Assembly: GCA_021234155.1 (NCBI GenBank) | Contig: JAJEKV010000291.1 | Location: forward strand, 188,001-252,000 | Direction of reading: 5' to 3' | Length of the DNA: 64,000 bases | DNA from: Isoetes taiwanensis | Taxonomy: Eukaryota > Streptophyta > Lycopodiopsida > Isoetales > Isoetaceae | Part shown: piece after piece, positions 5,945 to 62,639 of the stretch | How positions within the stretch are numbered: the stretch's first letter is position 1 | Layout of the letters: every line of letters starts with the position of its first letter | Program-made: the position numbers and the translations under genes | The notes under the pieces: generated by a model | What the model was told of the DNA's origin: nothing | Databases searched by the model: none | Seen by the model: only the letters and a program-made list of their open reading frames with translations

Positions 5945-8770
5945 TCAAGGAGCATGTGAGATGAGCAAAATGGAGCCAAGGAAGCCCAGCACAGGACATT
6001 GCCCTAGGCTCCAATGGAGGAAGATGGCCTGCTTGTTGTTGCACCCTTGCAACGAGACAGTATTTGCAGAGGGCATCATAACTGCAGTTGATCCTTTTGA
6101 TAGTGTGAATGATGAAAGGCTGGGAGATGATCATCTTGGAGTTGGCATTGTGAAGCTTCTTATCCAAGTTGATACAATCATGTCCCAGGGAAGCTCTAGT
6201 GATTGCATTGTGTGCTCTTGTTGGAGTCCCAAACTCAGTTGAGATGGCCAATTAGATATATTACACACAAGAATGGTGATAGTTTGGAATGCCCTACTGA
6301 ACTACATACCCCAAGGCCCACCCCAGGCCATGTGGAAGATTTGGTGGTCGATGAGCATCCTTTGATCACAAGGAAGAGGCACTATGTTTTTCATAAAAGG
6401 CAGCCAAGGGTGCCCAAGAGGCCTAGAAGTGACAAATATTTAGAAAGGATGGAAAGTATGGCCCCAACCAAAGAAAACCTAGGCAATTAGGGGACAAGAG
6501 TGTTGTGACCCTAGATTGCACAAAGGCATCTGATGTGTGGATGACCTCGTCAAGTGTGAGATAAGGTCCCAATACATTGGACAGCTTTTTATAAAGATAG
6601 GATTAATTTCATCTACTCCTTGTGTAGGAATTCCAGCTATGATGAAAACACAGGAAGGCTACTGTATCAATTGAGGGGCCTGAAGGTATGTATGAGAGCA
6701 TTGAGATGGATTCTTGGGGTGAGCAAGTCTTCATTCTACAGATACTAGGAGCAGGTTAGAAAAGGGCACAGTTTGTTCCAACATGACAATGCACTCACTT
6801 TGAAACCTAGAGCAAATACTCTCAAGGCCATTGCAGTCTTGAGAGCTTTGTGAGATACATGTCTCAATCTATGCCCCACAAGTCGAAGGTGAACGAAAGC
6901 ACTGTGCGAAAGTGGTGCAAAGGGTGTTGCCACAACACTATATCCAAAAGGAGTGCCTTAAAGAGGTCAACTCCATCCTAGAAACTACTGGAGGTAGGCC
7001 TCTTTCTCAATTACATTTCAGCAAGTTATGGAGCAATCACTTCTCAGACGTGAGTGTCCTGCAACACATGCCATTCTCAAAGTGCAACACTTGCATTCAA
7101 CTCAAGGATACACTTGCATCAACTGCAATAGAGAAAGAAAGAATGGCAATCAGGGAGCAATTTGCAGATCACCAAAGGGACCAAATATCATGTAGATAGT
7201 TGTATTGGCAGTGGAGAACATTTTCTCAGATGCAGCCTGACAGATTTCTGTGTATAATTCATGATAAGATGGACCAACACAAGACTTTCTTGCCAAAGCT
7301 AGATCCTTTACCCAAGCGTTGTCAAAACGCTTTTCAGATGAAAGTAAGTCTGGCGGGTGTCTTAACACATGGTCATGGAACTGGAACCTATGGTTATTTT
7401 GTGTTTGATCTATATGGAGGGATGATCCAAACTTCCATGTGAGCTCTATTTTCAAGTGCTTGAGAACACTAGAGAAAGGATCGATAGAAGGGAGGAGGTA
7501 TTCCCCATCAGCACCCATTTTTGAGGCTTTGATGGATGATCAACCGCTTTGTTACCAAAGGCAGATAAAAAAGCTCACATCCAAGGTGTCTAGTGAATCA
7601 AGGGGGACTTGGGATGATTTCCCCTTACTTGAGAAACAACTGCCAGAGGAGCTATGTGTTCAATTGGACAACTGTTGGAAAGAAAACAAGAATAGATGGA
7701 TGTTTGGGGCAATGTCATACTTGACAACAGTGGGAGTATTCAAAGTTGTGAAAGTGGGATTCATGATAGTTGGGCATACGCATGATGATATAGATGCATT
7801 CTTTGGAACTTTCTCCACCAAGCTCAAGAGAGAAAACGTGACTAGTCTCCCTGAACTAATGGATGTGTTTGAGAGCTGTTGAGAGCTGCATTGACCCCAA
7901 CCCACTGGCTTTCTTGATGGACGAGGTTGCAGATTGGAAATCATTTGTCGAGGGATACTTGCTAGATGGTAAGGATTAGTTGACAGGACACACAAAGCCA
8001 CTTCAGTTCAAGTTTTGGGTTAGGGATGGAATACCAATCATGCAATATAAGTGGAGACCAGGTGACAAGTTGTGGATGCCTGTACAAGGAATCGAATTGT
8101 GGCAACGGGGTGCTGCTGGTGAAGTTCTCATTCCTAAAGGGCAGCCAAAACCACTACCTCCCTTCAAGACTGTCAAAGACTCTAGCCAACTAGTGAAGGG
8201 CATCAAGGATTATATAACACACTGGGATGATGTTCGAAATGGAAAGCACACCTCCACTCTTAAGAAAAATCAAATGGACTCCCGAATCAAGTACTGGGAG
8301 AAAGTTGTGACATGCTTAGAAACTGAACAACCATGTGGGAGGGAGCTGAGAGACGGGTTCTTTGTGAGTCAAGATGGGAGGGTTCTCAAGGAGCAAGCAC
8401 GTCTAAGAATGTTCACTTGGGTCCTAACAAGGGTTCCAAGTGGTTTGTGGGAAGTAAGGCCTCAAAGCCGAAGTGGTTTGATCTTCCTGAGTGGGATCCC
8501 TTTGAGGACATCAAGGAAGGATACTTTGTGCTAGTAAGGCCGGATGATGAGGATTGTCCAATATGGTTAGGGGTGGCACTCTCTGATGTAACCACCACTA
8601 TGGCTGATGGAGAGGAGTTGCGTCCTGGATTCCAAATTCAATATTGGGAGCCCATTGGAAGACACAAGAAGTGCAACTTGAAGGAGCAATACACCGACTG
8701 CTGGGAGAAGAAGTGGAGGGCAAATCATGCTGGTCCTCAAAGGAGGGAATTGGTGGAGTGTGTGGTATAG
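5945..8770 (+). pseudogene. Decayed DUF7869-type transposase-like gene
   Basis: Coding traces continue for 2.8 kb in shifting frames. In order: a block with FAEGIITAVDP and DERLGDDHLGVG (about 6060-6170); YQLRGLKVCMRALRWILGVS (about 6660-6720); SKCNTCIQLKD, a Cys pair (about 7078-7110); HDKMDQHKTFLPKL (about 7260); LDNCWKENKNRWMFGAMSYL (about 7660); GHTHDDIDAFFG (about 7770); and a C-terminal block GYFVLVRPDDEDCPIWLG (about 8520). The Asp-rich motifs in this order match the DUF7869 family, which I take to be an RNase-H-like, transposase-derived fold; that assignment is from memory. At least five frameshifts or stops break it (near 6240, 6490, 7197, 7440, 7880). It cannot make an active enzyme. 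No terminal repeats were identified. Confidence 0.7.
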
Positions 8771-17268: not shown

Positions 17269-19150
17269 TTACTTTTGTGTTGCCCTTTTCTCTTTGAGCT
17301 TAAGATAGCGTGCCCTTCTTGCATTTGCAGCTTCAATTGTAGGATGATTGGGTGGGCCAAAAGCGGGATACTTGTTGGGATTTCTTGCCCTTAGCCTCTC
17401 TTCTATCTCCTTCAATCTTTCCTCTTTCAATCTCTTTCTCTTTTCACGCAACTCCTTCTTCTTTTTGTGCGACTTCCAACCTTGCTTTCTTTTTTTCTTC
17501 CCTCTCCTTTGCCTCTTGTTCCAACACGGCAATCATATACGCTTTGGTTACCCGGGGGTGCCGAAATATCCTTTGGAACAAATGTTTTCCTCACTTTGCC
17601 CATACATTAGAAACATTCTGGCGATTGTCCTCACCACTACACGTAGCGAAGCCACATTGGAACCCAGCGGATGCAACATTAGCACTAGCATTGAATTCAA
17701 TCTTATTACATTCCGGAAGTATTGCATTGCTGGTTTGAGGCCCCAGAGCTGCATTTGGATTCTCTCCGGCTTGAATAGGCAATTCAACTCCAATTCCACC
17801 CAATTCAGGCTGAACTTTGGAAGCATCTAGAGGCCGATTTCTGTTTTCCTAAATCCAGACTTGATATTTTGTGGAGTGAGTGCTTTATCTAATGCCTCTC
17901 TCACCATTTGAGCCAAATCCTCCTTACAAGGCTCTACTCCCAAGTGAGAAATACAATAAGCATGTCTAATAAGTCTGAATGCCTCTTTAAAAGGCTTGAA
18001 ACATGCAACATCAAGTGGTTGCAAGCGATTGTGATGTGTGTGCGGGTAACTTGAGTATTTGTAAACCTGTGCTAGCAGCCAATTTCACAGTTTCTAAAGT
18101 AACATGGGATCCATGACCATCCAAAATCAGCAAATGAGGATTGGTTGGAGACACACCACCTAGTACCACCTTTTTGAAATGATTCACCCAATCTTTGAAG
18201 ATGTCATTAGTCATCCATGCCCTCCTTTGCATAGATAGTGCAGCATCGGGTTCACAGCCTTCTAGATATTCTTCCCTTGCCCTAACTCCCTTCATAATGT
18301 ATAAGTTAGGAAGCCTTTCTCCTGCTGCATTTACACATGTAAGGAGGTCATCCATTCCCTATTTTGCATCACTCTCTCTCGATACCGCTTTTGTGTTCTT
18401 TGTGGTAATCACTCTAACTCCCGCTTCTTTACCTGCTTGGACACCAGACTCATCACAATTCCAAATGTGATGAGCATCAAACCCAAAAGCAGCATAAGCA
18501 TTCTGCAATTCATTGTAAAAGGCATCAAGATTAGGTCTGCTGAGAGCAAGAGCTCTCGCATTATCTATAATTTGAGCTTTTCTCAAGCTCAGATCTGGAT
18601 GCCTATTTTTAAAGCATCTCCACCACTTCAGGCCTGGAATTCCATTTTTAAAAGGTGTTATTCGGCCTGCACATACTTCTGCAACCTTTGCCCTTAACAT
18701 TGTAACTGTTACTCCCCAGCCTTCCATTACCATTTGCAAACACCATTCCTTCAATTGCTCCTCTTCCTCAACAGTCAGCACTCTAGGTCTCTTGCCACAC
18801 TTCCTATGAGAAAGATGGAAGAGATGGTTCCTAAGCGTGGTAATAGGAATGCCATTCATCCTTGCAGCTTTTCTCATGCTGTATAGCCCTGAATGAAACT
18901 CAACCATGGCTTTCTCAAGTGCATCCTCACTCCATGAACCTCTAGCATAATTTCTAACCACCTTTTTAGGCCTCTGATCAGCATGATTTGGTTCTACAAC
19001 AGTAGCTTGTTCTTGAGGAGAGGGAGCATGAATTCTTCTACCATTTGATCTAGGCCTAGTAGAGAGCAAATCTGTGAGAATCTCTGCAGCAGCACACTCA
19101 CCATCAGAGTCAGGGCTTCTTGCAGCTCTTGCTCTAGTTCTGGGCGCCAT
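17269..19150 (-). pseudogene. pogo/Tigger-type DDE transposase, broken
   Basis: Intronless. The first 263 codons (19150 downwards) give a basic, low-complexity N-terminus, a helix-turn-helix of the Psq type (about residues 67-115, with SMRKAARMNGIPITTLRNHL), a CENP-B/Tc5-like DNA-binding domain (about 118-185) and the first catalytic Asp in WNCDESGV (about residue 232). A TAG at 18359-18361 interrupts, and the same frame then continues with LLILDGHGSH (second Asp). A frameshift near 18015-18030 precedes LQPLDVACFKPFKEAFR (third Asp). The tail is a long Lys/Glu/Arg coiled-coil (17269-17500), after a further frameshift. The order and motifs match the DDE_1 (jerky/pogo) family, normally 450-600 residues. 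The stop and frameshifts make it inactive, but most of the sequence is well kept, so it is a fairly recent loss. Confidence 0.85.
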
Positions 19151-19350
19151 AGAAAGAGAGGAATGGATGCTTTACAATACGAAGAGCTAGGACTTATATA
19201 GACAAACTTGGCGCCAGGATACACTCTAAATTGGAAGGCTGAGATAGAAGGAGATCAGGATTGATGAAGTGGCATGCATAAACACCCTTGGATTCAGCCC
19301 CTCATAAACACTCTCAAATTTGGCGGGCTGCAAGTCATCCATGCCTGTAA

Positions 19351-23964: not shown

Positions 23965-24232
23965 TGTTGCAGATCCAAACAAAGATCACCATGATGTCAG
24001 TGACAGGCAGAATCTCGGGTAGTTACACAACTTCCCGGGCTTATGAGACACAACAAACTTTCATGTTTTAGTAGTAGCCGTTCACTATCTGTCATATATA
24101 AACAGATAGAGAACCGTAGTTTATCTCAAGCTTTCTTGCAAGTTCCCATTCAGCGTCTGCGGCGTTTCCCTCTAGCAGACCTTTGTTCTTGATCCTTCAT
24201 CAATAGACAATTGCATTCCTTCTTGTTTCACA
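23965..24232 (+). repeat. 5' LTR of the Copia element
   Basis: 268 bp, TG...CA ends. Contains CATATATAAACAGATAG (TATA-like) near 24094. The sequence just after it, GGTTATGGGCCCACA from 24233, is the likely primer-binding site; the tRNA was not assigned. Confidence 0.93.
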
Positions 24233-24350
24233 GGTTATGGGCCCACACTCCATCTAATCCGCTTAAGCCGATACTGTTCTTGCAGTTCCGATTCCCTCTC
24301 GTTCATAACTTCGTTTCATTATCTATTACCTTTGCAAATTCCAATTTTTC

Positions 24351-25130
24351 TCTTCTTGAAATCATGGAGTCCGTTTTCAACACTGCTTCTTTTGAATGGC
24401 AATTGATGCCCCGATTTGATGGAAAAGATTATCAGATGTGGAGGTGGAGACTCAGAATGATTCTGGAAGACAAGGATCTTTGGGAGATTACCTCAGCACC
24501 TCACATCGCTGATGTTCCTGCTGCAGCTAACAACATGGAGATTGTTCTCAATGATGAGAACCCTGTTCTTCTTGAAAAAGATCGTAAGGCTAGATTGGCA
24601 ATCTGCACTAGCCTGGGCGATACTCCTGCACGATTGGTCAAAGGGGTCATCAGTGCTCATGAGATGCTGGTGATTCTGGATAATCACTATGCTTCCAAGA
24701 CAGCCGGAAACCGTCTTGATCTACGCAAAGCTCTGTATGACCTCCACCTTCTCTTCTTGAAATCATGGAGTCCGTTTTCAACACTGCTTCTTTTGAATGG
24801 CAATTGATGCCCCGATTTGATGGAAAAGATTATCAGAATGATTCTATAAGACAAGGATCTTTGGGAGATTACCTCAGCACCTCACATCGCTGATGTTCCT
24901 GCTGCAGCTAACAACATGGAGATTGTTCTCAATGATGAGAACCCTGTTCTTCTTGAAAAAGATCGTAAGGCTAGATTGGCAATCTGCACTAGCCTGGGCG
25001 ATACTCCTGCACGATTGGTCAAAGGGGTCATCAGTGCTCATGAGATGCTGGTGATTCTGGATAATCACTATGCTTCCAAGACAGCCGGAAACCGTCTTGA
25101 TCTGCGCAAAGCTCTGTATGACCTCCACCT
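24351..25130 (+). repeat. Direct duplication of about 400 bp inside Copia gag
   Basis: 24351-24749 is repeated at 24752-25130, almost identical, beginning TCTTCTTGAAATCATGGAG. The second copy lacks 20 bases (24436-24455 in the first, around GGTGGAGACTCAG) and has minor changes. The near identity shows that the duplication is younger than the LTR divergence would allow for a random pair, perhaps from template switching during reverse transcription or from unequal exchange. Confidence 0.92.
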
Positions 25131-28100
25131 TCCTGAAGGAGGAGATGTCACAAGTCACATATGTCGCATGAAATCCATGCTTGATGATCTGGATGCAACT
25201 GGGGTCTTGATCACCAACGATGAAAAGGTCTGTCTACTCCTTAATAGCTTTCCTGCATCCTTTGAAGGCCTCATCATCAATCTTGAAGGTCGTCTCTCTC
25301 ATTATTCTTTTGAGGCCACAATTGATTGTATACAAGCCGAAGCCTTGAGACAAGGGAAATCCAAGTCAGTTTTTGATTCCATCATGATTGCTGATGCCAA
25401 GACCCTACGCCGACCCAAGCTGGATCGAAGTACCATCACTTGTCATCGCTGCCAATGCACCGGGCACTTTGCTAAGGAACGCACTGCCCCAGCACCTGTT
25501 CCGAAGCGTCCTGCCCCTGTGGAGCACAACAATATTGTTCAAAAAGCTGATGGTATGCCTGAGCACAATACCCTGGCCAAGATTTCAGTGAATTGTCTCC
25601 TCTTCTTGAAACTCCTCCTGCCATTGAGTTTCTATTCTCTGTACAAGATTCTTCAATTCACAATCGTGACTCTGCTTGGTATCTTGACTCTGGGGCAACT
25701 TGCCATATGTCTTCATTCCGCCATCTATTCCAGAATTATAGACCTCTAGCTCCGGCTCGACCAGTTCCTATGGGCAATAACAGTCTTCAACATGGGATTG
25801 CCACTATAATTCTCTAGCTTCCTAGCGGCACTATCAAGGGAATTCGAGAGGCTCTTCATGTTCCAGGTTCGCACAAGCAACTTATTTCTGTAAGCAAATT
25901 GACCTCCAGTGCTTTTCAGGTCTCTTTTCAATCTGATCATTGCACCATCAGCGATTCCCATAACACTCCAGTCATCCGAGGCACACGAGTTGGCAATCTT
26001 TATCGCCTTTGTGTCCATCCTTACCAATGATCATGCCTATCTTGTGCAAACTCTATTCCCTAATTCTGATTCTGACCGTTGGCACCTTCGTCTTGGCCAT
26101 GCAACACACTCTAGGCTTCAGACTCTTGCCTCCAGAGGTCTCTTTCCATCCACACCTCAACCCAACCCAAGATTCCTTGCATTACATGTCTTCAAGCTGA
26201 ATCCACACGCTCTCAATTTCCCCCATCATCCAGTCATGCATCCCGACTCCTACAAATGGTTCATAGTGATTTATGCGGGCCTTTTTCAGTGCCCACCTTT
26301 ACTGGCTCTCGATACATGCTCATATTCTTAGATGACCACAACCGAAAACTCTTTCTCTACCTTTTACGTTCCAAAAGTGAGACTTTTTCCAAATTCATTC
26401 ATTTCCACACATTTGCAGAGCGCATCACAGGCACCCAGCTTGTCACACTTCGCAGTGACGGCAGGGGAGAATATATCTCCAAATCTTTTCATGAATATTG
26501 CTCATCACATGGAATTACTCATGAAGTTACTGTTACAGCTACTCCAGAGAGAATAGACGAGTGGAGAGAGCCAATCGGTCCATCCTAGAAATGATTCGCA
26601 GTCTTTTGTTCACCATGAATGTACCCCTTGCCTTCTGGGGTGAAGCAGCAGCCACAACCATTTATCTGATTAATCACCTTCCCCATCGCAGCCTCCAGCG
26701 ACAATGCCAGAAGAGACTTGGTCTGGTCAGTCCATTCGGATGCCAAGCCTTTGTTCACCTTCCACATCCTTCCTCCAAACTAGCACCCAAAGCCATTCCT
26801 TGTATGTTTCTTGGTTACTCTTTGACCAGCAAAGCCTATCGTCTATATGATCTGGCTAAACACAAACTGATCATCAGCTGTCATGAGAAATTTCATGAAA
26901 CTGTTCCTTGCCATCATATTCCTCTCTCTCTTGATCTTGTCTTGCTGGAATTTCCTGCTATACCCACCTCTGATCCATCATCTTCTATATTCCTCTCTCT
27001 CCTGATCTTGTCTTGCTGGAATTTCCTGCTACACCCACCTCTGATCCATCAACTTCTACTGCTCCCATTCCTGATCCATCAACCTCTACTGCTCCCATTC
27101 CTGATACGCCACCTTCTACAGCTTCTGTTCCTGATTTACCCTCCCACTTCATCATCTCTCAATTCCCCACTTGATTCTCCTCCCATCTCCTCTTTACCCT
27201 CCTCTCCCATCATGGAGCCTCTTGCTATTCCAACTTGCGCCCCATTCGCACACACCGAGCTCCAGTTTGGGCCTCTGACTATTCCTTTCTCTCTGAGACA
27301 CTTCCCAGTGAACCTCTATCTTATTCTCAGGCCATCACAGGACCATTCAAGCACGAATGGCAACGTGCCATGGAAGAAGAAATTGACTCTATCAAATCAG
27401 CTCACACTTGGTCTCTGGTATCTCGCCCTGCTCATATATAGACCTGATGTTTCGTCCAAATGGGTCTACAAAGTACAACACCAATGGACCAGTTGCTCGA
27501 TTCAAAGCCCGTCTGGTAGCCAGAGGCTTTAATCAAGTCGAAGGCATTGATTTCGAGGAAACCTATGCACCAGTTGCCCGCATGGTTTCAATCCGCACCA
27601 TTCTTGCTCATGCTGCTTAAAATCACTATTTCATCCATCAAATGGACATACACAATGCCTTTCTCAATGGTGACTTACATGAAGAGGTATATCTGGAGCA
27701 GCCCCAAGGTTTTCAATCCTCTGACCCCTCTGAAGTTTGCAGATTACACAAGGCTCTTTACGGTCTATGCCAAGCCTCCCAGTCATGGTATACTCGTTTG
27801 GATCAAATTCTGATCACTTTTGGTTTTTCTCGCAGTCATGCAGACCCCAGTGTCTACTACAAGCTCAAACCTTCTTTTCTTATCATTCTTTGCTATGTCG
27901 ATGATCTGCTCCTTATTGCAGCCTCTTCCTCTGATCTTGACGCTGTTAAGACCCAACTGCAGGCATCCTTCCGCATGAAAGATCTTGGCAGCCTTCACTA
28001 CTTCCTTGGCCTTGAGGCCTTCTATGATCAAACCGTTGGGAAACTCTACCTTCATCAATCCAAATACATATTTGACATCCTCGCCAAGGCCAATCTCAGC

Positions 28101-28813
28101 TCTTGTAATCCAGTATCTACTCCTCTTGAATTCGGCCTCTCTCTCATGCCAAATGATCCTCCATGCACCCCTCAGTTTCAAACTCTCAAAGATCACTACC
28201 GTACTCTCCTCGGCATGCTTAACTTTGCTGCTATATCTACCAGACCAGATCTTGCTCTTCCCTTATGCAAATTAAGCCAATTCTCAATGATCCACGTAAT
28301 TCCCACTGTGCTTCCCTCAAACATGTCCTCCGTTATCTAGCCGGGACTATCTCTCATGGGATCTACTATCATGCTGACAATTCTTCCTCCACCATTCAAG
28401 GCTACTGTGACGCCGATTGGGCAGCTGATCACCATGATAGAAAGTCTGTCTCCGGACATGTTTTTACCCTTGCAGGCGGCGCTATTAGCTGGAGCAGCTC
28501 TAAACAAAGTTGCATTTCACTCTCCAGCATTGAAGCTGAATATGTGGCTATGTCTCATGCCACAAAAGAAGCCATATGGCTACAGAGGCTTTGCACAGAC
28601 CTGCACTTCCCCAAACCCCTTCCAACTACCCTCCATGTTGACAATCAAGGGGCTATGGCTATTGCTCGGAACCCAGTCCTTCATCGCCGCATCAAACATA
28701 TTGATATTCAGTATCACTTCTTACGCAATCTTGTACAAACTGGCGCTATCACTCTTCAATATTCTCCCACAGATGACAATCTAGCTGATATGTTCACCAA
28801 GGCGTTAGCTTGA
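24364..28813 (+). pseudogene. Copia gag-pol, interrupted by stops, frameshifts and an internal duplication
   Basis: Gag starts at 24364 (MESVFNTASFEW). A near-complete 400-bp segment of gag is repeated (see the separate entry). The zinc knuckle (about 25439-25480) reads CHRCQCTGHFAKER, with Arg in place of the last Cys. The protease has WYLDSGATCHM (about 25676). Integrase follows with DLCGPFSVPTF, LRSDGRGEY and ERANRSILEMIRSLLF (to about 26890). A proline/serine-rich linker with tandem repeats (26920-27150) precedes RT, which has [40 protein letters not shown] and the intact catalytic box CYVDDLLL (about 27890). RNase H contains GYCDADWAAD and SLSSIEAEY and ends at 28813. Breaks include stops near 25816, 26028, 27618 and 28340 and shifts near 26310 and 26565. 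Not translatable as one polyprotein. Confidence 0.93.
26925..27130 (+). repeat. Tandem repeats in the integrase-RT linker of the Copia element
   Basis: A unit containing CTTGTCTTGCTGGAATTTCC and CCCACCTCTGATCCATCA occurs twice. Shorter TGCTCCCATTCCTGATCC units follow twice. They encode a Pro/Ser/Thr-rich linker, a part of Copia pol that tolerates length change. Confidence 0.8.
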
Positions 28814-29650: not shown

Positions 29651-31124
29651 TTGTTTTAGTGCAAAAATCACACTAAAAACACAATATCCCCAACGTAATA
29701 ATCTGTAAATTTTGGCTTAAATTATAAGATGCAATGTCTCTGCCACTTTATCGCATAACAGCGCCGCTATCCTCTGTTTCCTCTGCAGCACTCTACTCGG
29801 CAGAGTTTCCATAACTGTTTGGAGTCCCTCTGCTCAGCTCGGATGCTCGGAGTCCCTCTCCTCGGCAGGGGTTTCCATAGCAACTCGAATCAAAGCTACG
29901 ACTGCTACTAACCTTCGTTAAAGCCAAAACAAATTTAATCTTCAATTTCCATAGTTTTTATAGCTTTTCGGTTGCAAGGGCCAGACCTCCACAGCTGAAT
30001 CTCGCAAGGACCCCATAGTCTTTTTTTTTTTTTTTTTTTTTTAATATGTGTCATAATCTGAACCTTATGTTTATTACGTCCCATAATTCATCGGCAGAGC
30101 ACATAATGCCCACATAGGGCTTCTCAGCGGCATAAAGCAACTACAAACTCTAGAAACAAGAATGTTAAAATATGTATTGTTTTGGATATATCGTTTCTTT
30201 CCACAATTAATACCTGTCCTTCAGGTGTGAAATTGATACCAAGTTTCCTTGAAGCAATTATTGTACTTTTGAACCTAGAGGCTATACTTTGTCAAGTAGT
30301 CCAGAATATATGCAACAACTGAAGGTGCATTTCCTTGAACCTTAGATATAAAGACAGCCTTATGCTATAGGCACAATCTTAAACTACCAAAAGTAGATTT
30401 TTAGACAGTCTTAAGCAAAATAAGGAGTTCTCTTTGGCATTATGGTATGGTTCTCAAGCCTTGGAGAAAAGAGTGAAGTCAATGCGATAAAGAGAATCCT
30501 GAAGCATTGAGTTTGGCAACTCTTATTAAAATATTGTTGAATGTCCCTTCCAGGTATAAATTATTCTTTCGTAAAATAATGTGCATGGTTACAACAACAT
30601 TTAAGATGATGTTACCATAGAGAAGTCCATGTATGCATGTCATTTATGATAATGAGGCTATTTCATGCGCAATCAAAAATTGCCAATTTAAAATTTAAAG
30701 GTGGAAAGCTTTGTAACAAGGGAGGGTTGTTGGGTGAACCCATTGCTTGAATGGTATTGCCATCTTCATTGTAAATCCACATTAACAACTACATAACTAC
30801 ATAATTAAAAGTAGGATAGGTGCCACTTTGCATCTCAAAAAAATTAAGACCAATCAATGACAATGATAGATGCCATGTTGCATGACAGGATGTTAAATGG
30901 CTGAGTAAAAACACGTACCAGAATATTAGCCAGGCAAAGCCGTGCACACACGTTCACTAGTATATTTCTAACTTTGAAATATAGGTGACAAAAACCATTG
31001 AATTGAAGAATAAAAAATTAAGGGCCCAAGATGTAGTGTTACTCACTTCCCTAAACACACGGAAGTCACGAAAGAGAAATGTTCTCGGCGCTCGATCAAT
31101 TTTTTGTATAGGTAACTTCAAACT

Positions 31125-31715
31125 TCAAGTCTTCCTTTTTCTGCACAAACTTGCGCACTGGACAGTAAAAGTCCACTCTATGCTTTTAAGAAAAAGCATG
31201 AAGTTCTAACCTTGGATATGGTGATCCGCATGTAAATCTCTGGCCGGATTTCTTCCTTATGTGTCCATCTTCCGAACGTCCTTCATTATTTTCATTGTTG
31301 CTGGGTTGCTGGGGTTCAGTCCTCCTTGAGGTACATTTTCTGTTAAAATTAAAATGCATAGTTTAAAAATCAGTATTGATTAGTAAAAATTAGCAACCAA
31401 CCCTTTGATGCATCTAGATAGGGAGCTGTTCTTGTTATTGCGCAGATCATAAGCTCTATGAGGACTCCCATTTTGGTTAGAGCTTTGTGAACAGGTCTCA
31501 GATTTTCTAAATGCAGTGGCAGGACTAGAAAAGATTGGATCAGCGGCCATGATATTGAGTTGACGGATGACATCAGAAAATGTAATGATAATATCAATTG
31601 CTTCAACCTGGATTGATTTGGAATCAGCTGTTCCATCATCCATCATCTGTTGAACTTGATTAGCATGGCTACAACCCTTCTGAATTGCAGCATGCAATTC
31701 GTGAACAGCATCCAT
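31125..31715 (-). CDS. WRKY-related gene with degenerate heptad and no zinc finger (copy A)
   Basis: Three exons fit: 31715-31402 (MDAVHELHAAIQKGCSHANQ..., 104 codons), 31339-31211, and a tiny last one 31140-31125. Splice sites and phases match those of the plus-strand WRKY gene nearby: exon 1 ends in GG before GTTGGT, and exon 2 ends at CCAAG/GT. Exon 2 reads EDGHIRKKSGQRFTCGSPYP where its neighbour has EDGYVWRKYGRKSILGSPYP, so the DNA-binding heptad has become RKKSGQR. Exon 3 adds only KRKT before a stop, so the C2H2 zinc finger is absent. The product, about 152 residues, should not bind W-box DNA in the usual way. It could act as a decoy through its N-terminal helix, or be a pseudogene. 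The N-terminal ELHAAIQKGCSHANQVQ resembles the N-terminal region of group III WRKYs. Confidence 0.6.
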
Positions 31716-32704
31716 AGCTGCAGTTCATAAACAAAGTAGATGCTCTTCATCACCGTTCTATTCACCAGAATTTAAATATTAAGCTGATGGACCTGTTCCT
31801 TGCTCTTTGTCCATAGTTGACAATCCTTGCAGAGAAGTGTTCTTATTTGACTTGAATTATGCACCATAGCCTAACAATGTCAATGTCGCTGTTCCGGTGT
31901 TCCTTGGCATATTATCTCAACTTGAGTTATATATACGGAGTTCCATAGAAGTAAAGTTATAAAGATCTGTGCATAATGTAACAAGTTTCCATAAGATCAG
32001 ATGACATGGTCTTACATGGCACCTGAATAAATTCTGAACATGCCCAGAAACAGCTGGCTTATGGGACCTTTAGAAGAAAGGAGCATAAAAAGGAATCCCC
32101 ATCTCTAAAGGTTTCTCAAGAGGGAAGAAAAAGATTTTAGGAGTATCTAGTTTACCATAAAAAAGTTGAACAGAGTAATTACTAAAGGATTAGGTAGGTA
32201 CCCATAGAGGAGTTGTATTATTGGCCTCACATACCACTAAAATGTCTACCAAGTTTTGGGCCCTACTTGCAACTAGACTACTGTCCGTTTAATTTGTGGT
32301 ATTGGCACATGCAGTACAACCACTTGCTTCTAACTTTTAAAATGGAGGCAGATTTGTCTCTCAAAATGTCAAGTAAAGATAGAAATTGCTCCAAATTCGT
32401 TTAAATGTCATGTTAGCTACAGTTGCAAGATCTAGAAGCGCGGTTTACTGTTGTTAGAGTAAGGTATTATGATTTTTTATCTTTTAATTTTGCTAGCAAA
32501 CAACTTTTCTTATTATTTTACATTGACTTTCTTAAGGTTGGGTCAAGTGGAAGAGTAGAGATCGCGCGTTCGAGGAGCTTTGATTTGCGTATTGGCTAGT
32601 TCTAGAACAGTCAACAGGGCGGCTGGTCAAATAGATGGCACATATAATAAGCCTTTCTGTAGACTCTGCATCTGCACACAAGATCCACATTGCCATCCAT
32701 TTAG
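31716..32704. promoter_or_regulatory. Shared intergenic region of the head-to-head WRKY pair (copy A)
   Basis: About 990 bp between the two start codons. It contains TTGACT W-box cores at 31847-31852 and 32523-32528, a TATA-like TATAATAA at 32643-32650, 55 bases upstream of the plus-strand ATG, and no other gene. The same layout is found in copy B. W-boxes before a WRKY gene suggest self- or cross-regulation; this is inference. Confidence 0.5.
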
Positions 32705-33631
32705 ATGCAATTGGACATGGATGAACATCAATTTTCGATTTCGAACATCCAAAAGGTGTGCAGCTATGCAAGACAAATTGAACAGATGGGAATTGATGGC
32801 ACCCTTAACTATGCCAATTTTGCAGACATTGCATCGAATCTGGTTTCAATTTCTGACACTGCCATGGTTCAGCTCACTACCATGATTTCAAATGAGCCTA
32901 CTGCATTGCGGCCGCCCTTGGTTTCTCCTATTCCAATGACTCAAAATATTAGCCAGTATTTATCAACTGAACAATGTAGGAGCCCTTCAGGACGAAATTA
33001 TTCTAGAAAGGGGTTGGTTTTTTTTTTCCTGCTGTGAAATGCATGCAGTGCCTAATGCATTGCTCTTTCAATGTAACAGGAAATGTGTGAGGTTTGAAAT
33101 CCAGAAACCAAGGGATGACAAGAGTGAGGGACCTGTTGAAGACGGTTATGTCTGGAGGAAATATGGCCGGAAAAGTATTTTGGGGTCTCCATATCCAAGG
33201 TAGGAAGGTGACAGTTCTTTATTTCAAACATGTCAATACTAATACGAAGGCTTGATATAATTTGCAGAGACTATTATACATGTAAGGAACAAAATTGCCC
33301 AGCCAAAAAAAGGGTACAAAAGACTGAAAGGGAGGATTATGCAGTGGAATATATAGCTAAACATTGCAACCATCCCATGCAAGCAAATTCAAACAGTTTT
33401 GAGCTCTCTAGACAGATACCCCCATCTGTTTCTGACTCCAGCATATTGAGATTCTCTATTCAGACTGCTGATCAACACACTAATTTTCAGGAAGTGGGAT
33501 CTTCAATGGACTTTGATCCCGCTTTCTATCCTGCAACTCCTGACCTAGATTTGCATCATGAATGGCTGGCCTTAGACAGAAACTCTGCTGCAGAAATGCA
33601 TCTCGATATGCAATTCCATCCATTCATTTGA
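32705..33631 (+). CDS. WRKY transcription factor gene, copy A (shortened C-terminus)
   Basis: Exons 32705-33012, 33080-33199 and 33268-33631 join in frame to 263 codons. WRKY proteins are nuclear DNA-binding factors that recognise TTGAC boxes. Exon 1 encodes a Met/Gln-rich leader MQLDMDEHQF and a predicted helix SYARQIEQMG. Exon 2 carries DGYVWRKYGRKSILGSPYP; the intron interrupts after the PR codon, the position typical of WRKY genes. Exon 3 has the Cys pair of the zinc finger (CKEQNC) and the end AKHCNHP. The third exon carries a 4-bp addition (near 33617) against copy B, which shifts the frame and ends the protein at HPFI, 12 residues short. The start could also be the second ATG (32717). 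With one WRKY domain and a C-X4-C finger it does not fit the usual groups neatly. Confidence 0.85.
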
Positions 33632-33769
33632 GGCTTATGGGCCAACTAGCCCGTCTATTTTTGATATTTGATGCAAAATATCCTCTAGGGTATCGATAAG
33701 TTATCCCATGCCTCTTTTACTTAAAGCGGCACAAACTACTCGATTGCACATTTTATATTCCAAAATACA

Positions 33770-33792
33770 ACAAGAAATTTATCGCGGCGGCC
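33770..33792 (+). repeat. CACTA-like terminal motif
   Basis: Reads ACAAGAAATTTATCGCGG followed by CGGCC, the same as at 13972. It lies 140 bp after the WRKY gene and its counterpart is present after the copy B gene (51985-52011), so it was there before the duplication. Confidence 0.5.
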
Positions 33793-34594
33793 TAAATTTT
33801 TGTTTCATGGCAAAAGGAACAGCATTATTTGCACTATGCCCTACAGGATAGTAGAAAAGATTCAAACTGCATCGCAACAAGGTGCTCTCTTGGTGTTATT
33901 CTGAATTGAAAGAATAGATGCATATATACGCTTGGAAGTTTCATGTACCCTATATGTAGTTACGAATGTTTGAGAATATTTTGCCCATGTAATTGATTTG
34001 GGAATATTTTGCCCATGTAATTGATTCCTTGGACAATTTTACTATGAGAAACTGTTGAGCACTCCAGATATGAAGGATGTTCACGACGTGGCCCATGATT
34101 CAAAAAACTAGTTTAAGTTTTGTCATGATTTGCCCTACGAGATGCTGGAATTTCCAATGTGGATGGTGACTTTTATTGGACACAGTAATATGTTGTCAAA
34201 TGTTGCCCCAAAAGTGCGAAAAGCATCGCTAAGCCTTTTAACAAAATGATGAATTAATGTTCTTTTGCAGTCAACTGCAGCCTATTTTGGCTATATCTTT
34301 CAGTATGGGTACCTAACGACATGCTTGAAGGAATAGTTTTTGTGTTTCTTTTTCATACATGGAAGCACTTACTTTGCCATTAAAAGCATCTTATAATTTT
34401 AATGAGATTCAAACAGCTACAAACGATGGTAAATGCATCAACCCAATCCATTCTATCTGCGTTAAAATTCTTTGAGCCAAACATTACAAAGTTCTATTGA
34501 AGATCCTAGTGCAGAGATAGAAAGATTTTGTAAAACTATATTGAAGACCCTAGTTCAAAGAGAAAGAAGGATTTGTAAAACTAGACAATTGTCA

Positions 34595-48860: not shown

Positions 48861-49333
48861 CTCAAGATATTCTAGGATCATCAGAAAAAAGAAAAAGAGA
48901 ATCCTGAAGCATTGAGTTTGGCGACTCTTATTAAAATATTATTGAATGTCCCTTCTATGTATAAATTATTCTTTCGTAAAATCATGTGGGTTACAACAAT
49001 ATTTAAGATGATGTTACCATAGATCTCAAAAAAATTAAGACCAATCAATGACAACGATAGATGCCATGTTGCATGACATGATGTTAAAAGGCTGAGTAAA
49101 AACACATGCCAGAATACTAGCCAGGCAAAGCCGAGCACACGTTCACTAGTATATTTCTAACTTTGAAATATAGGTGACAAAAACCATTAAAGAATAAAAA
49201 ATTAAGGGCCCAAGATTAGTGTTAGATATGTACTCACTTCCCTAAACACACGGAAGTCACCAAAGAATAGAATAGAATAGAAGAGAAATGTTCTCGGCGC
49301 TCGATCAATTTTTTGTATAGGTAACTTCAAACT

Positions 49334-49922
49334 TCAAGTCTTCCTTTTTCTGCACAAACTTGCGCACTGGACAGTAAAAGTCCACTCTATGCTTTTAAGA
49401 AAGCATGAAGTTCAAACCTTGGATATGGTGATCCGCATGTAAATCTCTGGCCGGATTTCTTCCTTATGTGTCCATCTTCCGAACGTCCTTCATTATTTTC
49501 ATTGTTGCTGGGTTGCTGGAGTTCAGTCCTCCTTGAGGTACATTTTCTGTTAAATTTAAAATGCATAGTTTAAAAATCAGTATTGATTAGTAAAAATTAG
49601 CAACCAACCCATTGATGCATCTAGATAGGGAGCTGTTCTTGTTATTGCGCAGATCATAAGCTCTACGAGGACTCCCATTTTGGTTAGAGCTTTGTGAACA
49701 GGTCTCAGATTTTCTAAATGCAGTGGCAGGACTAGAAAAAATTGGATCAGCGGCCATGATATTGAGTAGACGGATCACATCAGAAAATGTAATGATAATA
49801 TCAGATGCTTCAACCTGGATTGATTTGGAATCAGCTGTTCCACCATCCATCATCTGTTGAACTTGATTAGCATGGCTACAACCCTTCTGAATTGCAGCAT
49901 GCAATTCGTGAACAGCATCCAT
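49334..49922 (-). CDS. WRKY-related gene with degenerate heptad and no zinc finger (copy B)
   Basis: Exons 49922-49609, 49546-49418 and a possible last one 49349-49334, at positions equivalent to copy A. Exon 1 is 314 bp and exon 2 is 129 bp in both copies. The same changes are present: the heptad reads RKKSGQR and no zinc-finger exon is found. The reading frame is kept open in both copies, although several residues have changed (for example MMDGGTAD against MMDDGTAD, VRLLNIM against VRQLNIM). The second donor is GTTTGA here, GTTAGA in copy A. Open frames and conserved splice sites in both copies argue for some selection or for a recent duplication. Confidence 0.6.
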
Positions 49923-50908
49923 AGCTTCAGTTTATAAACAAAGTAGATGCTCTTCATCACCGTTCTATTCACCAGAATTTAAATATTAAGCTGATGGACC
50001 TGTTCCTTACTCTTTGTCCATAGTTGACAATCCTTGCAGAGAAGTGTTCTATTTGACTTGAATTATGCACCATAGCCTAATAATGTCAATGTCGCTGTTC
50101 CGGTGTTCCTTGGCATATTATCTCAACTTGAGTTATATATACGGAGTTCCATAGAAGTAAAGTTATAAAGATCTGTGCATAATGTAACAAGTTTCCATAA
50201 GATCAGATGACATGGTCTTACATGGCACCTGAATAAATTCTGAACATGCCCAGAAACAGCTGGCTTATGGGACCTTTAGAAGAAAGGAGCACAAAAAAGA
50301 ATCCCCATCTCTAAAGGTTTCTCAAGAGGGAAGAAAAAGATTTTAGGAGTATCTAGTTTATCATATAAAAGTTGAACAGAGTAATTACTAAAGGATTATG
50401 TAGGTACCCATAGAGTTGTTGTATTATTGGCCTCACATACCACTAAAATGTCTACCAAGTTTTGGGCCCTACTTGCAACTAGACTACTGTCCTCATGCTT
50501 GTCCGTTTAATTTGTGGTATTGGCACATGCAGTACAACCACTTGCTTCTAACTTTTAAAATGGAGACAGATTTGTCTCTCAAAATGTCAAGTAAAGATAG
50601 AAATTGCTCCAAATTAGTTTAAAGGTCATGTTAGCTACAGTTGCAAGATCTAGAAGTGCGGTTTACTGTTGTTAGAGAGACAATGCAGAGTAAGGTATTA
50701 TGATTTTTTATCTTTTAATTTTGCTAGCAAACAACTTTTCTTATTATTTTACATTGACTTTCTTTAGGTTGGGTCAAGTGGAAGAGTAGTGCGTATTGGC
50801 TAGTTCTAGAACAGTCAACAGGGCGGCTGGTCAAATAGATGGCACATATAATAAGCCTTTCTGTAGACTCTGCATCTGCACACAAGATCCACATTGCCAT
50901 CCATTTAG
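49923..50908. promoter_or_regulatory. Shared intergenic region of the head-to-head WRKY pair (copy B)
   Basis: 986 bp. Keeps the TTGACT core (50754-50759) and the TATA-like TATAATAA (50847-50854) in the same places relative to the plus-strand ATG. A short stretch around the GATCGCGCG element of copy A (32566) is deleted here. Confidence 0.5.
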
Positions 50909-51879
50909 ATGCAATTGGACATGGATGAACATCAATTTTCGATTTCGAACATCCAAAAGGTGTGCAGCTATGCAAGACAAATTGAACAGATGGGAATTGA
51001 TGGCACCCTTAACTATGCCAATTTTGCAGACATTGCATCGAATCTGGTTTCAATTTCTGACACTGCCATGGTTCAGCTCACTACCATGATTTCAAATGAG
51101 CCTACTGCATTGCGGCCGCCCTTGGTCTCTCCTATTCCAATGACTCAAAATATTAGCCAGTATTTATCAACTGAACAATGTAGGAGCCCTTCAGGACGAA
51201 ATTATTCTAGAAAGGGGTTGGTTTTTTTTTTCTTGCTGTGAAATGCATGCAGTGCCTAATGCATGAAAATGCTGCTCTTTCAATGTAACAGGAAATGTGT
51301 GAGGTTTGAAATCCAGAAACCAAGGGATGACAAGAGTGAGGGACCTGTTGAAGATGGTTATGTCTGGAGGAAATATGGCCGGAAAAGTATTTTGGGGTCT
51401 CCATATCCAAGGTAGGAAGGTGACAGTTCTTTATTTCAAACATGTCAGTACTAATACGAAGGCTTGATATAATCTGCAGAGACTATTATACATGTAAGGA
51501 ACAAAATTGCCCAGCGAAAAAAAGGGTACAAAAAACTGAAAGGGAGGATTATGCAGTGGAATATATAGGTAAACATTGCAACCATCCCATGCAAGCAAAT
51601 TCAAACAGTTTTGAGCTCTCTAGACAGATACCCCCACCTGTTTCTGACTCCAGCATATTGAGATTCTCTATTCAGACAGCTGATCAACACAGTAATTTTC
51701 AGGAAGTGGGATCTTCAATGGACTTTGATCCCGCTTTCTATCCTGCAACTCCTGACCTAGATTTGCATCATGAATGGCTGGCCTTAGACAGAAACTCTGC
51801 TGCAGAAATGCATCTCGATATGCAATTCCATTCATTTGAGGCTTATGGGCCAACTAGCCCGTCTATTTTTGATATTTGA
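50909..51879 (+). CDS. WRKY transcription factor gene, copy B (intact)
   Basis: Exons 50909-51216, 51292-51411 and 51480-51879 give 275 codons plus stop. The WRKY domain is DGYVWRKYGRKSILGSPYP (exon 2) plus YTCKEQNCPAKKRVQKTE and VEYIGKHCNHPMQ (exon 3). The heptad is WRKYGRK, a known natural variant of WRKYGQK. The finger is C-X4-C followed by 21 residues and H-X2-H, one residue more between the last ligands than the usual H-X-H. The C-terminal half is Ser/Asn-rich with an acidic-aromatic end EAYGPTSPSIFDI. All splice sites are canonical and no stop interrupts it. It is the best-preserved member of the three copies. Expression is likely from the TATA box about 55 bp upstream. Confidence 0.88.
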
Positions 51880-51984
51880 TGCAAAATATCCTCTAGGCGA
51901 TAAGTTATCACATGCCTCTTTTACTTAAAACGGCACAAACTACACGATTGCACATTTTATATTCCAAAAGGTTGAAAAGTAATC

Positions 51985-52011
51985 TACAACAAAAAATTTA
52001 TCATGGCGGCC
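51985..52011 (+). repeat. CACTA-like terminal motif (changed copy)
   Basis: Reads CTACAACAAAAAATTTATCA then TGGCGGC. It is the counterpart, in copy B, of the motif at 33770. Confidence 0.5.
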
Positions 52012-52319
52012 TAAATTTTTGTTTCATGGCAAAGGAACAGCAGTAAAAAAGATTCAAACTGCATCGCAACAAGGTGCTCTCTTGGTGTTATTCTGAATTG
52101 AAAGAATAGATGCACATATACACTGGGTGTATATATGAAATGAAAGTTTCATGTACCAGTTACGAATGTTTGAGAATATTTTGCCCATGTAATTGATTCC
52201 TTGGACAATTTTACTATGAGAAACTGTTGATCCTGTATGAAGGATGCTGTTCACAAATTTTACTAGATATGAAGGATCCTGTGCACAGGATCTATTTGTG
52301 CACAGGCTCTGTTCATGCT

Positions 52320-56600: not shown

Positions 56601-59600
56601 TCCATTTCGGGGATAAATACAGTTTAATTTGTGCAAGAATTGCGGCATGGTAACCCGATACTCATAATTCATTACATATTATTTGGGTGTGACAAGCAAA
56701 ATAGACACAATTTGAATGATAAGCAACTTATTTGTGAATCAAGATGCGAGAACAAAGAGATCCCACTTTGCTACAACGGATCCCATACATCCGGTACTAA
56801 TTTACTTCATAGTTGTTGGGAAGCTGCTCTCCTAATTTGTTGGTGTTGGTTGTGTTGATGAACCTGCTTTCATGTTTAGAATCTTTTCCGAACCTTATGA
56901 ACAAATTGAATCAAATGCCAATTACACCAAGGCAATGAATGTCCACAGTTTTTTGACCTTGTTTCCAAAGGTAATTTCAAGTCTTTTCTTTTCTTTCAAT
57001 CTTTTTACTTAATTTAAGTAATTTTATTTCTTATCCATCTTTAGATTCTTTTCCCCAAGACTTTGAAGATTATGAAGGTTGGCCAACAAAGCACTCAAGA
57101 AACCCAATGTCATGAAGAACCTTGTTTTGAAGGTAAGTAAGTTTAGCAATTTACTCGAACACGAAAGATTTCTCTAATATTGAACTTCAAAAATATTTTT
57201 GCAGATGGTGATGCTTTTAGAAGGTATAGAGTGAGTTAAGGAGAAAGGAGAGGAGTCTTAAAGGGAAAAGAGAGCTTGCAAAGCAGATGAAGAAGCCTTA
57301 CTACAAAGGAGATCTCAAAGACATGGAAAAAGAGAAGGTTATCAAAAGAGTTGCACTCAAGGTAAAAAGGTTCTTCAAAGTGCAAATTTTAAAGATAGAA
57401 AGGAGATACTTCAATCTCTGCAAGACAAAGTGGCTTCACGAACTTCTTTGTTCCAAGCAAACAAGGAAGAGTCTGTATTGAAGAGTATTGTAGAAAATTT
57501 AAAAAATCTTTTTGCACTCATAAGAATGAGAAGAAAAAGATATTAGGAGGGCAAGAAATCTTTGCCATGGTTTATCTTTGTCAATAGTGACATCAACAAA
57601 TCAGCATTCTCTAGAACTCTATGTTTGAACAGAAAAGATTGTTACAAGCTAGCCAGAAGAAAGGAGAGTATGTCTTGAACATGGTGATGGACCATGGTCC
57701 ATGTTCAAGAATAAGATTAGATGTGACAAACTATCTTACAATGAGAGAAAACTAGTTGTTGACTTTTGGAGGTACAACACAAGGGTTTCTTCATGTAAGA
57801 AGCATGTCATCAAGATTAAAGCCTCATCGAGGGAAAGAAGATCTTGCATGCACTTCACTTTCTTGAGGAGACCCGGGTAATTTTAAGAAAATTGTTACAA
57901 TGATGAAAAGTTTTATCACACATGCGACATGCCGACCATTTCTCGGGTAGTTTTTACCAACGCTTTGTAAAACAATATCCGAATTTCAAATATCATTTTC
58001 AAGCATTCCATGCTCAAACCTCCATATGTGAGGAAGGTAAAAGATAGAGAAACTTGCTGCTGTATCTATCATTTGAGAATTGACTTTGTGAGACTGGCCA
58101 TAAACAAAGTAAGACTAGATCAGAACATTCATGGTACCAATTGCACATGCAATTGTGATTTATGTGGTCCAGGACCAACTTGCAATGCGTCTATATTTAC
58201 ATACACTTCAACCTCGAGCTTTGGAGAGCTATGGTATGTTCTAAGGATGATTCTTAAGAGTGGCATCAACATAACATGTCACTCTTGAAATGCAAAACAT
58301 GTGGAACAAAAAAGATCCCAACTTGTCCACAAGAAAGAGATTACAAGTTGGACCATCAAGTAGAGTGGAAGACATTTGTTAAGGTGATGCACATGTTCTT
58401 GACACGTTCTTGTGAAATGTACATGAATTGAAACTGTTTTTTATATGGCGAGTGTTTATGGCGACAAGGTAACATTTTGCACACTTATAATCAACTAAGA
58501 ACAATTGCCATTCTTATAGAAATAGTTATTATGGGGCGAGAACATAGTTGAAGAACCCATTAAGAAGGTCTTTGAGAAGGTGAAAAATGTGAAGAAGAAA
58601 AGTGCGACAATAGCGGATTCCTTGAAGACCGCAAAGAGAATTGGTAAAGCAAACCTGTTGTTGAGCAGCACGGGTCGAAAAGAAGTTTCAATAGCTACTA
58701 AGAAGGCACTATATTTGCTAATGAATTGCTTATTCCAAGAAGGTGGTAATGACATGTGTTTATTGTCATTTCTGACAAGCTCCCAAACACGTCAACAAGC
58801 TTGTGTACAAGAAAAACACCGATTGCGAGTTATTTCAATTTTCGTGACACCTTTCTTAATGCTTTTATTCCTCATAATTATGAAGCAAGATGGCAAGCAA
58901 AACAGTCGGGGAGTGCTTGGCAACCTTTCCAAAGGACACTATAGTTTCGAGTCATTGACTTTGCAGAGAACTATACCTTCAAAATTCAACAAGAAATACA
59001 AAGCCCGCATTAGAGGAATGACCAATGCACCATTTTGGTGCATATCACTTATAGGCATGCTACCAATTCTCTGAGCAAAAAGAAAAGATCGTTAAGGAAA
59101 CACATTTCTATATAAGTGATAATGAGAGAACATGATGTTCTGTTTGTTCAACATTGCTTGCAAAACATGCTATTTTTCTTGTTGATAGAGGTGTCAACTA
59201 CAAGAATCATGTCATGTGGTCCGATGGTTGTTCCCATCAATTTAAAGGTGCAAGGATGTTCTACTTCCTTGGCGATTCTTTTCAAAAACAGGAATACCAA
59301 TAAACTGGAACTTCTTTGCATCATATCATGGCAAAGGTAAATACTTCAACTTTACTCTATTGTTTTATCTTTTCTTTTTTTTTTGTTCTTTAGATTTTTG
59401 TAATGAACAAATGCGTGTGAACATGATGGTCTTTGAGTTTGTAATAAAAAGAGCACTCACACATGAGATGTTGAAGAGGAATTCAGTACCACTAAGGAAT
59501 GCACATGATGTAGTTGTGTTTTGCATTTCACATTTTAAATCAGATTGTGAGATAGAAGGAGAGGAAAAAATATAGGTATGGTTCTAGTATGGAAATTAGT

Positions 59601-60310
59601 TGTGTTTAAAACAATATTGAACATTATTTTTACGTGTTTTTGGGAGATAACTATCAATGATGTTGATAGGAGTGATAGCCATGATTGTAAGACATTAACG
59701 GGATCAAGAAAGTTCCATTGTATCGGGAGCCTGTTCATGCCAATGACCCTACTCGGGTAGCTCATATGGATTTCGGGTTGCTTTTTGTCGTCTTTCTTTG
59801 GGCAAGAAAGTATGGGAAGTGCATAAACAAAAAGCGAGAATAGGATCTTGGGTTTATTCTCAACTAAGTCCCGGTGTTGAAGAGGTCTTTGGAAACTCTG
59901 CGCAGGGTCCTATCTATGAAGGGGATCATGAATGGGTATCTGATGTAGTTGATGTTGGGGATAATTTTGCAGTACCATCTGAGGCCAACAACAAAGAAAA
60001 AGTGGACTTTTATATTATCCGATGCACTAAACCTAAGCACATTGTGGAAAAGGCATTTAAAGATGCATGGGGTGCTAAATTTGCAAGAAGAGAAGTGGTT
60101 TTGTCAGGCAAGTATTACAAGTTCATGGGAGGAAATCAATATGAATTGCTTGAGGATGCACCAGAATGCCATGCATATAGCCACTTGGTCATGTCATGTT
60201 GTTTTGATATGTTACATGCAAATGATAACATATATGAACTTCCAATGGATGTTCATGATCATCTTCTGACCGAAGTTTTGGAGTACAAGAGTAGTCTATA
60301 TCTTTGAATA
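56600..60310 (+). pseudogene. Second transposase-like gene, RNase-H-like, broken
   Basis: Coding traces, in order: NERKLVVDFWRYNTRVS (about 57745); LKPPYVRKVKDRETCCCIYH (58013); HGTNCTCNCDLCGPGPTCNA, a Cys cluster (about 58130); VSIATKKALYLLMNCLFQEG (58690); VIDFAENYTFKIQQEIQSPH (about 58950, first Asp); FVQHCLQN; HVMWSDGCSHQFKGARMFYF (about 59215, second Asp); IPINWNFFASYHG (about 59290); IKRALTHEMLKR (59445); and a C-terminal block VDFYIIRCTKPKHIVEKAF to GKYYKFMGGNQYELLEDAPE (59800-60310, the longest intact frame, 169 codons). This motif order recurs, to my memory, in unclassified DNA transposons of early land plants and animals. It is related to but distinct from the gene at 5945-8770. Stops and frameshifts break it in many places. 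Confidence 0.6.
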
Positions 60311-60410
60311 GCATAATTGATGATGATAAGGCTGCACCAAGTTGCTGAAGAAAGAGTACCAAATGAATATTTTACTGACATAATCTCATTGCTCTTACAA
60401 ACACCTCATG

Positions 60411-60616
60411 TACATTCATTTGATAATGAAATCATATACAACATTGTAGTATATTCAGATTGCAGATTGCAGATTGTATTCATATTTGCATTGCGATTGT
60501 ATTCATATTTGCGGTTAAGATTGTATTCATATTTTGCATTGCGCATTGCATTGATTGTATTCATATGTACACATTCATTTGATAATGAAATCATATACAA
60601 CATTGTAGTATATTCA
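60411..60616. repeat. 46-bp direct repeat with TTGTATTCATATTTG units between
   Basis: ACATTCATTTGATAATGAAA starts both copies (60412 and 60571), which end GTAGTATATTCA. Between them GATTGTATTCATAT occurs three or four times. Confidence 0.88.
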
Positions 60617-60763
60617 AATGAATTATGGTTCTCATTCATTTGGTGATTGAGATATGAATTGGCATAATTGTGAAGTTAATCCCTCACCAAACAATCAATC
60701 ATATACAACATTCATTTGCAGACATTGCATAAACGAACCGGTACCATAAATGTGGAAACTTAC

Positions 60764-60873
60764 ATGCCTTCAAAAAGTTCATACTTAATATCAATTATCT
60801 TACATGTAAAAAGTTACATGCCTTCAAAAAGTTACAAAAGTTACATGCCTTCAAAAGTTCATACTTAATAGCG
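60764..60873. repeat. Tandem repeat around TTACATGCCTTCAAAAAG
   Basis: Three copies of the motif in 110 bp, two of them followed by TTCATACTTAATA. It lies between the two convergent broken genes. Confidence 0.88.
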
Positions 60874-60959
60874 GTACATACTTGGATCGGTAGAAACATA
60901 ACAAAATATAAACAAGCTTCAAACTTAGGACACGAAGATCTTTCAAACCCGCAAATCCT

Positions 60960-62402: not shown

Positions 62403-62639
62403 CTGAAAAAGTAAAAAACAATAAAAAAATAAGCACAAACAAGATTTCTGAACAAAGGAAAAAAGAACTGAGCACAAAGAAAAACAAACATTTCTGATCA
62501 AAGGAAAAAAAAGTAATGTGAGTATCTCTGCCACAGGCGTAGAACTCATGGTAGCGACCTCGAATTGTGCAAGAAAAAAACAGAGCTGGGTTACTACTCC
62601 AAACTTCGTTCGGTCGATTGCCGGAGTGCAAGAGAAAGG

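Follow-up and report, generated by a model that had tools for sequence, protein, structure and literature searches.

Tandem clusters of WRKY genes with damaged members have been described in many plant WRKY surveys. The locus considered here, in the lycophyte Isoetes taiwanensis, is like them in its local multiplication and in the presence of damaged copies beside intact ones. It differs from them in that one damaged member is far older than the array and lies head to head with an intact gene. Another comparable system is RPS4/RRS1, a head-to-head pair of NLR receptor genes, one of which bears a WRKY domain. The divergent layout with a WRKY-bearing gene is the same, but RPS4 and RRS1 are both NLR receptors, whereas the two genes found here, called P and M, are both WRKY relatives in which a profile search gave no Pfam domain besides WRKY. 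By tree placement (97/93), P and M resemble the group III WRKYs, such as OsWRKY45 (PDB 6ir8) and the WRKY domain of RRS1 (PDB 5w3x), and their phase-2 introns lie at the same places. Conversely, group III WRKYs have a zinc finger of the form C-x7-C-x23-H-x-C, whereas that of P is C-x4-C-x21-H-x2-H; by sequence, the best match of P is to group I structures and not to group III, and M, unlike group III WRKYs, is without a complete WRKY domain. The promoters of tomato group III WRKY genes carry W-boxes, and auto- and cross-regulation has been proposed for them (PMC5055730). A head-to-head pair of two WRKY genes was found in none of the titles and abstract openings listed by a literature search, and the word WRKY is absent from the main text of PMC8566536 and PMC10541799.

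The window, that is, the whole stretch of 64,000 nucleotides that was analysed (C856:188001-252000), belongs to an assembly of 1,658,258,908 bases in 1,110 contigs; its features are collected in Table 1. The preferred reading, with a probability of about 0.62, is an ordinary local duplication of WRKY genes together with an old, probably decaying neighbour, rather than clear shared control. That figure is a joint one: it covers P as a gene for a transcription factor, whose atypical WRKY lineage is related to group III and which sits in a local cluster, and also the decay of M and the copying of the block. The P lineage would have multiplied into a local cluster, and W-boxes are most likely the target of its protein, among them the ones in the promoters of P itself and of its sisters, which would amount to auto- and cross-regulation. 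M would be an old paralogue of P on the opposite strand whose frame was long kept open, which has lost its WRKY DNA-binding domain and which would now be in decay. A block of about 3.3 kb would then have been duplicated recently, with M carried along; M and P would have been copied together because M adjoins one P lineage, and not from mutual need. Taken in this way, the pair and the cluster may form a small, well-preserved record of the growth and decay of a regulator cluster in a lycophyte. If M is expressed, the three near-identical pairs and the seven copies without a known M would provide a natural experiment on the effect of a degenerate neighbour, and the P lineage, with its altered zinc finger, offers another testable point.

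Table 1. Positions of the WRKY features (window coordinates unless a contig is named).
Feature	Position	Strand	Description
P1	32717-33631	+	Intact WRKY gene; reads through three exons; stop included
P1 exons	32717-33012, 33080-33199, 33268-33631	+	Gene model
M1	31715-31099	-	Degenerate WRKY relative, head to head with P1
M1 exons	31715-31402, 31339-31211, possible third 31177-31099	-	Gene model
Intergenic region P1/M1	31716-32716		1,001 bp between the ATGs
P1 upstream region	32201-32716	+	Four W-boxes (TTGACY); counterpart at all ten P copies
Duplicated block	30832-34079		Counterpart at 49023-52246
P2	50921-51879	+	Second P copy; all exons open
M2	49308-49922	-	Second M copy; second intron of 31 nt
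P3	53047-53844	+	Third P-type copy in the window; damaged; without M alongside
P-type copies on C856	176, 221 (P1), 239 (P2), 241 (P3) and 262 kb; fragment at 254 kb
P-type copies on C1033	17.420, 17.508, 17.529 and 17.567 Mb
P-type copy on C344	79 kb
M copies	C856 219 kb, C856 237 kb, C1033 17.530 Mb		Each head to head with P

The original prediction described a head-to-head WRKY pair with starts about 1 kb apart. This was borne out by P1 on the plus strand and M1 on the minus strand, whose separation of 1,001 bp is measured between start codons rather than transcription start sites. On the M side of the intergenic region, TATATAT occurs at 31928-31935. Both introns of P1 (67 and 68 nt) are in phase 2. 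The two genes had also been said to share splice positions and phases. This holds for intron 1, which has the same place and phase (2) in M and P, and for the donor of intron 2, which is likewise common to both; the remainder is weaker, as intron 2 of M is just 31-33 nt long and its splicing is doubtful.

P is recognised by the Pfam WRKY profile with 64.7 bits (E 8.9e-18), above the curated cut-off of 21. Its heptad is WRKYGRK in P1, P2, P4, P5, P6 and P7, WRKYGQK in P8 and P9, and WKKYGQK in P10, and it is gone in P3. The zinc finger spacing given above is that of P1 and of the copies with an intact exon 3; it departs from the group III form, whereas group III genes of the same genome show C-x7-C and end in HxC. 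The first zinc His lies one position earlier than in usual WRKY domains, which holds for each of the three P subgroups (KHCNH, KHCKH, EHSDH).

The claim that the pair was copied as a unit about 18 kb away was confirmed: a second pair lies at 49308-51879, and the two copies of the block are 92.6% identical, gaps counted. This comparison supports the copying of both genes within one short unit of about 3.3 kb. Duplication of the whole 18-kb stretch is ruled out, the duplicated block being merely about 3.3 kb long. A third complete pair is present on contig C1033; over 2.56 kb, both the second and the third pair share 96% identity with the first. The C1033 pair, P3 and seven P copies outside the window had been missed earlier. 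The genome contains ten or more P-type copies, spread over three contigs, plus one fragment. Five of them (P1, P2, P4, P6 and P7) are open through all three exons, with an exon 1 shorter by 30 bases in P7; in P8, P9 and P10 the domain is open and the C-termini are altered; P3 and P5 are damaged. The frame of P3 terminates early within exon 3. In exon 2 of this copy, the shifts cancel in length yet delete the WRKY heptad, and the zinc finger exon stays in frame. M was found at three of the ten P copies and at none of the other seven. The retention of an M remnant at these seven was considered and rejected, as tblastn with M to an E of 1 in partial flanks gave P-type matches alone.

The count of separate genes depends on the nature of the three contigs. 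The odds are about even that C856, C1033 and C344 represent alleles which the assembly has kept separate, in which case the third pair and some of the ten copies would not be separate genes; this is compatible with the other readings. C856 is collinear with C1033:17.416-17.570 Mb and with C344:76-82 kb at 90-96.5% identity, and the segments may be alleles or recent segmental copies. With C1033 reversed, the identity to C856 is 92.6% over 6.1 kb and 94.6% over 1.2 kb (90.1% in a partly overlapping stretch), while C344 and C1033 are 96.5% identical over 1.75 kb. An allelic origin would also be in keeping with the genome paper, which gives 1658.30 Mb in 204 scaffolds with a scaffold N50 of 17.40 Mb and 909 unplaced contigs, and which describes many low-Ks syntenic genes on separate scaffolds, for which its authors suggest possible recent segmental duplications (PMC8566536). 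However, a divergence of 4-10% is high for alleles, and the two window pairs share a contig and are separated by unlike DNA, so that their duplication stands, unless there is a misassembly.

Judged by dS, the split of M and P is old (dS about 2) and preceded the duplication of the pair (dS 0.03-0.05) by a wide margin. Between M and P, dS ranges from 1.7 to saturation and dN from 0.59 to 0.65 (P9 and P10, among others, are left out of this dS table), and the P genes among the pairs give a dS of 0.032-0.046. For the P half, the tree unites the two pairs of the window as sisters (99/96) and leaves the C1033 pair outside them; both other groupings are rejected (p 0.007 and 0.012). In the M half, the differences private to single copies number 14, 18 and 13. 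Of the differences in each half, those private to C1033 make up 32 of 56 for P versus 13 of 45 for M (p 0.005); this excess on the P side is suggestive of conversion or of histories that differ between the halves.

The original prediction went on to propose linked regulation from a shared promoter. According to this proposal, M and P would be co-expressed from a true bidirectional promoter within their common 1 kb and held together by selection, which now appears unlikely. W-boxes (TTGACY) occur three to five times per copy in the 423-516 bp upstream of all ten P copies, where shuffling gives an expectation of 0.4-0.7; as the P copies are related, the ten counts are not independent. The same W-box-rich stretch is retained over 0.4-0.5 kb upstream of every one of them, including the seven at which M was not found. 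Since the P promoter is kept at those seven, P seems not to need M, and an obligatory shared promoter is presumably absent; M itself looks degenerate, and linked regulation is not supported in its original form. On the other side, each of the three M copies retains the arrangement. Among the pairs, the intergenic DNA next to M (31716-32200) differs by 1.0-1.9%, whereas the flank beyond M differs by 4.2-5.0% (p 0.06, 0.002 and 0.006). This low divergence is the one hint of a kept M-side regulatory region, but conversion would explain it as well, and the C1033 counts reported above raise the possibility that the M half was evened out in that manner. Moreover, the pairs are so young that their co-retention requires no selection.

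The state of M is consistent with loss of function in DNA binding. Against the Pfam WRKY profile M reaches 14.8 bits, below the cut-off of 21. The WRKY heptad is gone, its position reading IRKKSGQ, and the possible third exon keeps one zinc Cys and ends ahead of the final His pair. The second intron measures 33, 31 and 32 nt in the three copies. The least intron length known for plants is about 60-70 nt, above that of the M intron, and it is doubtful that the M intron can be spliced. Read without the second intron, the frame of each copy stops within about 30 codons (by eye). Among the three M copies, 13 changes are replacing and 2 are silent, and among the P counterparts 13 and 9, all being half of the summed pairwise counts (P3 and P5 do not enter this table). 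The M ratio fits an absence of constraint (p 0.37) better than it fits the ratio of P (p 0.024); a direct comparison of M and P is not significant (p 0.14). M seems on these grounds to be an old paralogue that is now decaying.

M could alternatively be a working protein that does not bind DNA and that modulates P; it might, for instance, pair via their common N-terminal region and act as a decoy or small interfering partner. Stops and indels were absent from the 522 modelled exon bases in the three M copies, and the N-terminal exon is still P-like. In neutral runs with a frame of the length of M, 0.3% stay open at one change per site; as drift would rarely leave such a frame open, M has probably been kept for long. 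Against decay of M, its exons also differ less than the 3′ flank among the pairs (p 0.02, 0.05 and 0.05), as does the intergenic DNA on its side. Nevertheless, a modulating role is improbable: the recent differences in M are mostly replacing, P thrives at the seven sites without a known M, and pairing via the N-terminus is putative for WRKYs.

The relationship of M and P was assessed from 93 WRKY matches in the genome, of which 20 regions were taken for comparison. Common ancestry is supported by the N-terminal exon, which gives z 9.4 for M1 versus P1, a score that none of 1000 shuffles reached, and z 8.4 for M1 versus P8, reached by 1 of 1000, compared with z 4.7 for the best other group III gene, L020. 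The second exons are also similar at the DNA level in inverted orientation (116 bp, 66%, E 5e-4), and M, searched against the genome to an E of 0.1, gave 13 matches, all of them M and P copies. The original prediction implied that the two members should not fall in distant WRKY groups. In a tree of 26 WRKY domains, all from this genome (L016, L019, L026, L029, L030, P2, P3, P5, P9 and M2 excluded), both are placed with group III against groups I and II, as noted above; this agrees with the expectation, except that M is on a very long branch and its placement with groups I/II is not rejected (p 0.16). With L028, P4 and P7 excluded additionally, M and P form a clade (94/92) versus six group III genes of this genome when the N-terminus and the WRKY domain are joined, with a warning from the program that two long branches meet, and the N-terminus alone gives 86/93. 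A gap of 13 columns in the alignment of these regions is common to M and P versus the six group III genes. The two are probably more closely related to each other than to anything else among the sequences compared, and an inverted duplication event would have given rise to them.

Shared splice positions had been put forward as evidence of this origin. As proof of a private M/P duplication they are rejected, because the shared introns are family-wide in this genome: of the 19 intron-bearing WRKY domains examined, 18 share the phase of the donor at the PR codon (the remaining one has GC instead of GT), and a candidate exon-1 donor at the same phase is present in seven of seven group III upstream stretches. 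Of the claimed descent from one ancestor by inverted duplication, the common ancestry is retained, whereas sisterhood is unproven, given that the WRKY remnant of M does not by itself place it with P and that a grouping of M with L020 on the N-terminus is not rejected (p 0.20). M might be another group III gene which came to lie beside P. The best tree from the WRKY domain only does place M within group III apart from P (51/83), and M1 bears some likeness to L020; the joined and N-terminal clades, the higher z values against P1 and P8, the common gap and the exclusive genome matches all speak for sisterhood and make such a neighbour rather improbable. Likewise improbable is an activator-plus-modulator cassette, copied as a unit with one divergent promoter, in which M, without DNA binding, would modulate P or its sisters via the N-terminus.

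The preferred reading of local WRKY duplication concerns one part of a window that contains other features. An open frame at 7409-7879 on the plus strand matches DUF7869 (Pfam E 1e-31), and another, on the minus strand at 18359-19168, includes a DNA-binding domain of the Tc5 transposase type (Pfam E 5e-7). The frames at 24193-28813 on the plus strand resemble a copia-type retroelement by eye; the sole piece of this stretch that was searched, 28223-28813, gave no Pfam match. A large repeat occupies 57200-62700, with at least 65 genome matches among those listed, many of them 85-94% identical over kilobases (32 of 1282 candidates were scored). Elsewhere in the genome, six loci, L038 (C1040), L039 (C543), L040 (C985), L041 (C963), L042 (C1049) and L043 (C919), make up one dispersed repeat family and are pairwise mostly 80-98% alike, in pieces. 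Each contains, near its middle, a P-type WRKY piece of 63-81 bases, which corresponds to exon 3 in five loci and, in L043, spans the junction of intron 2 and exon 3. From its sequence, this family looks like a mobile element that has captured a gene piece.
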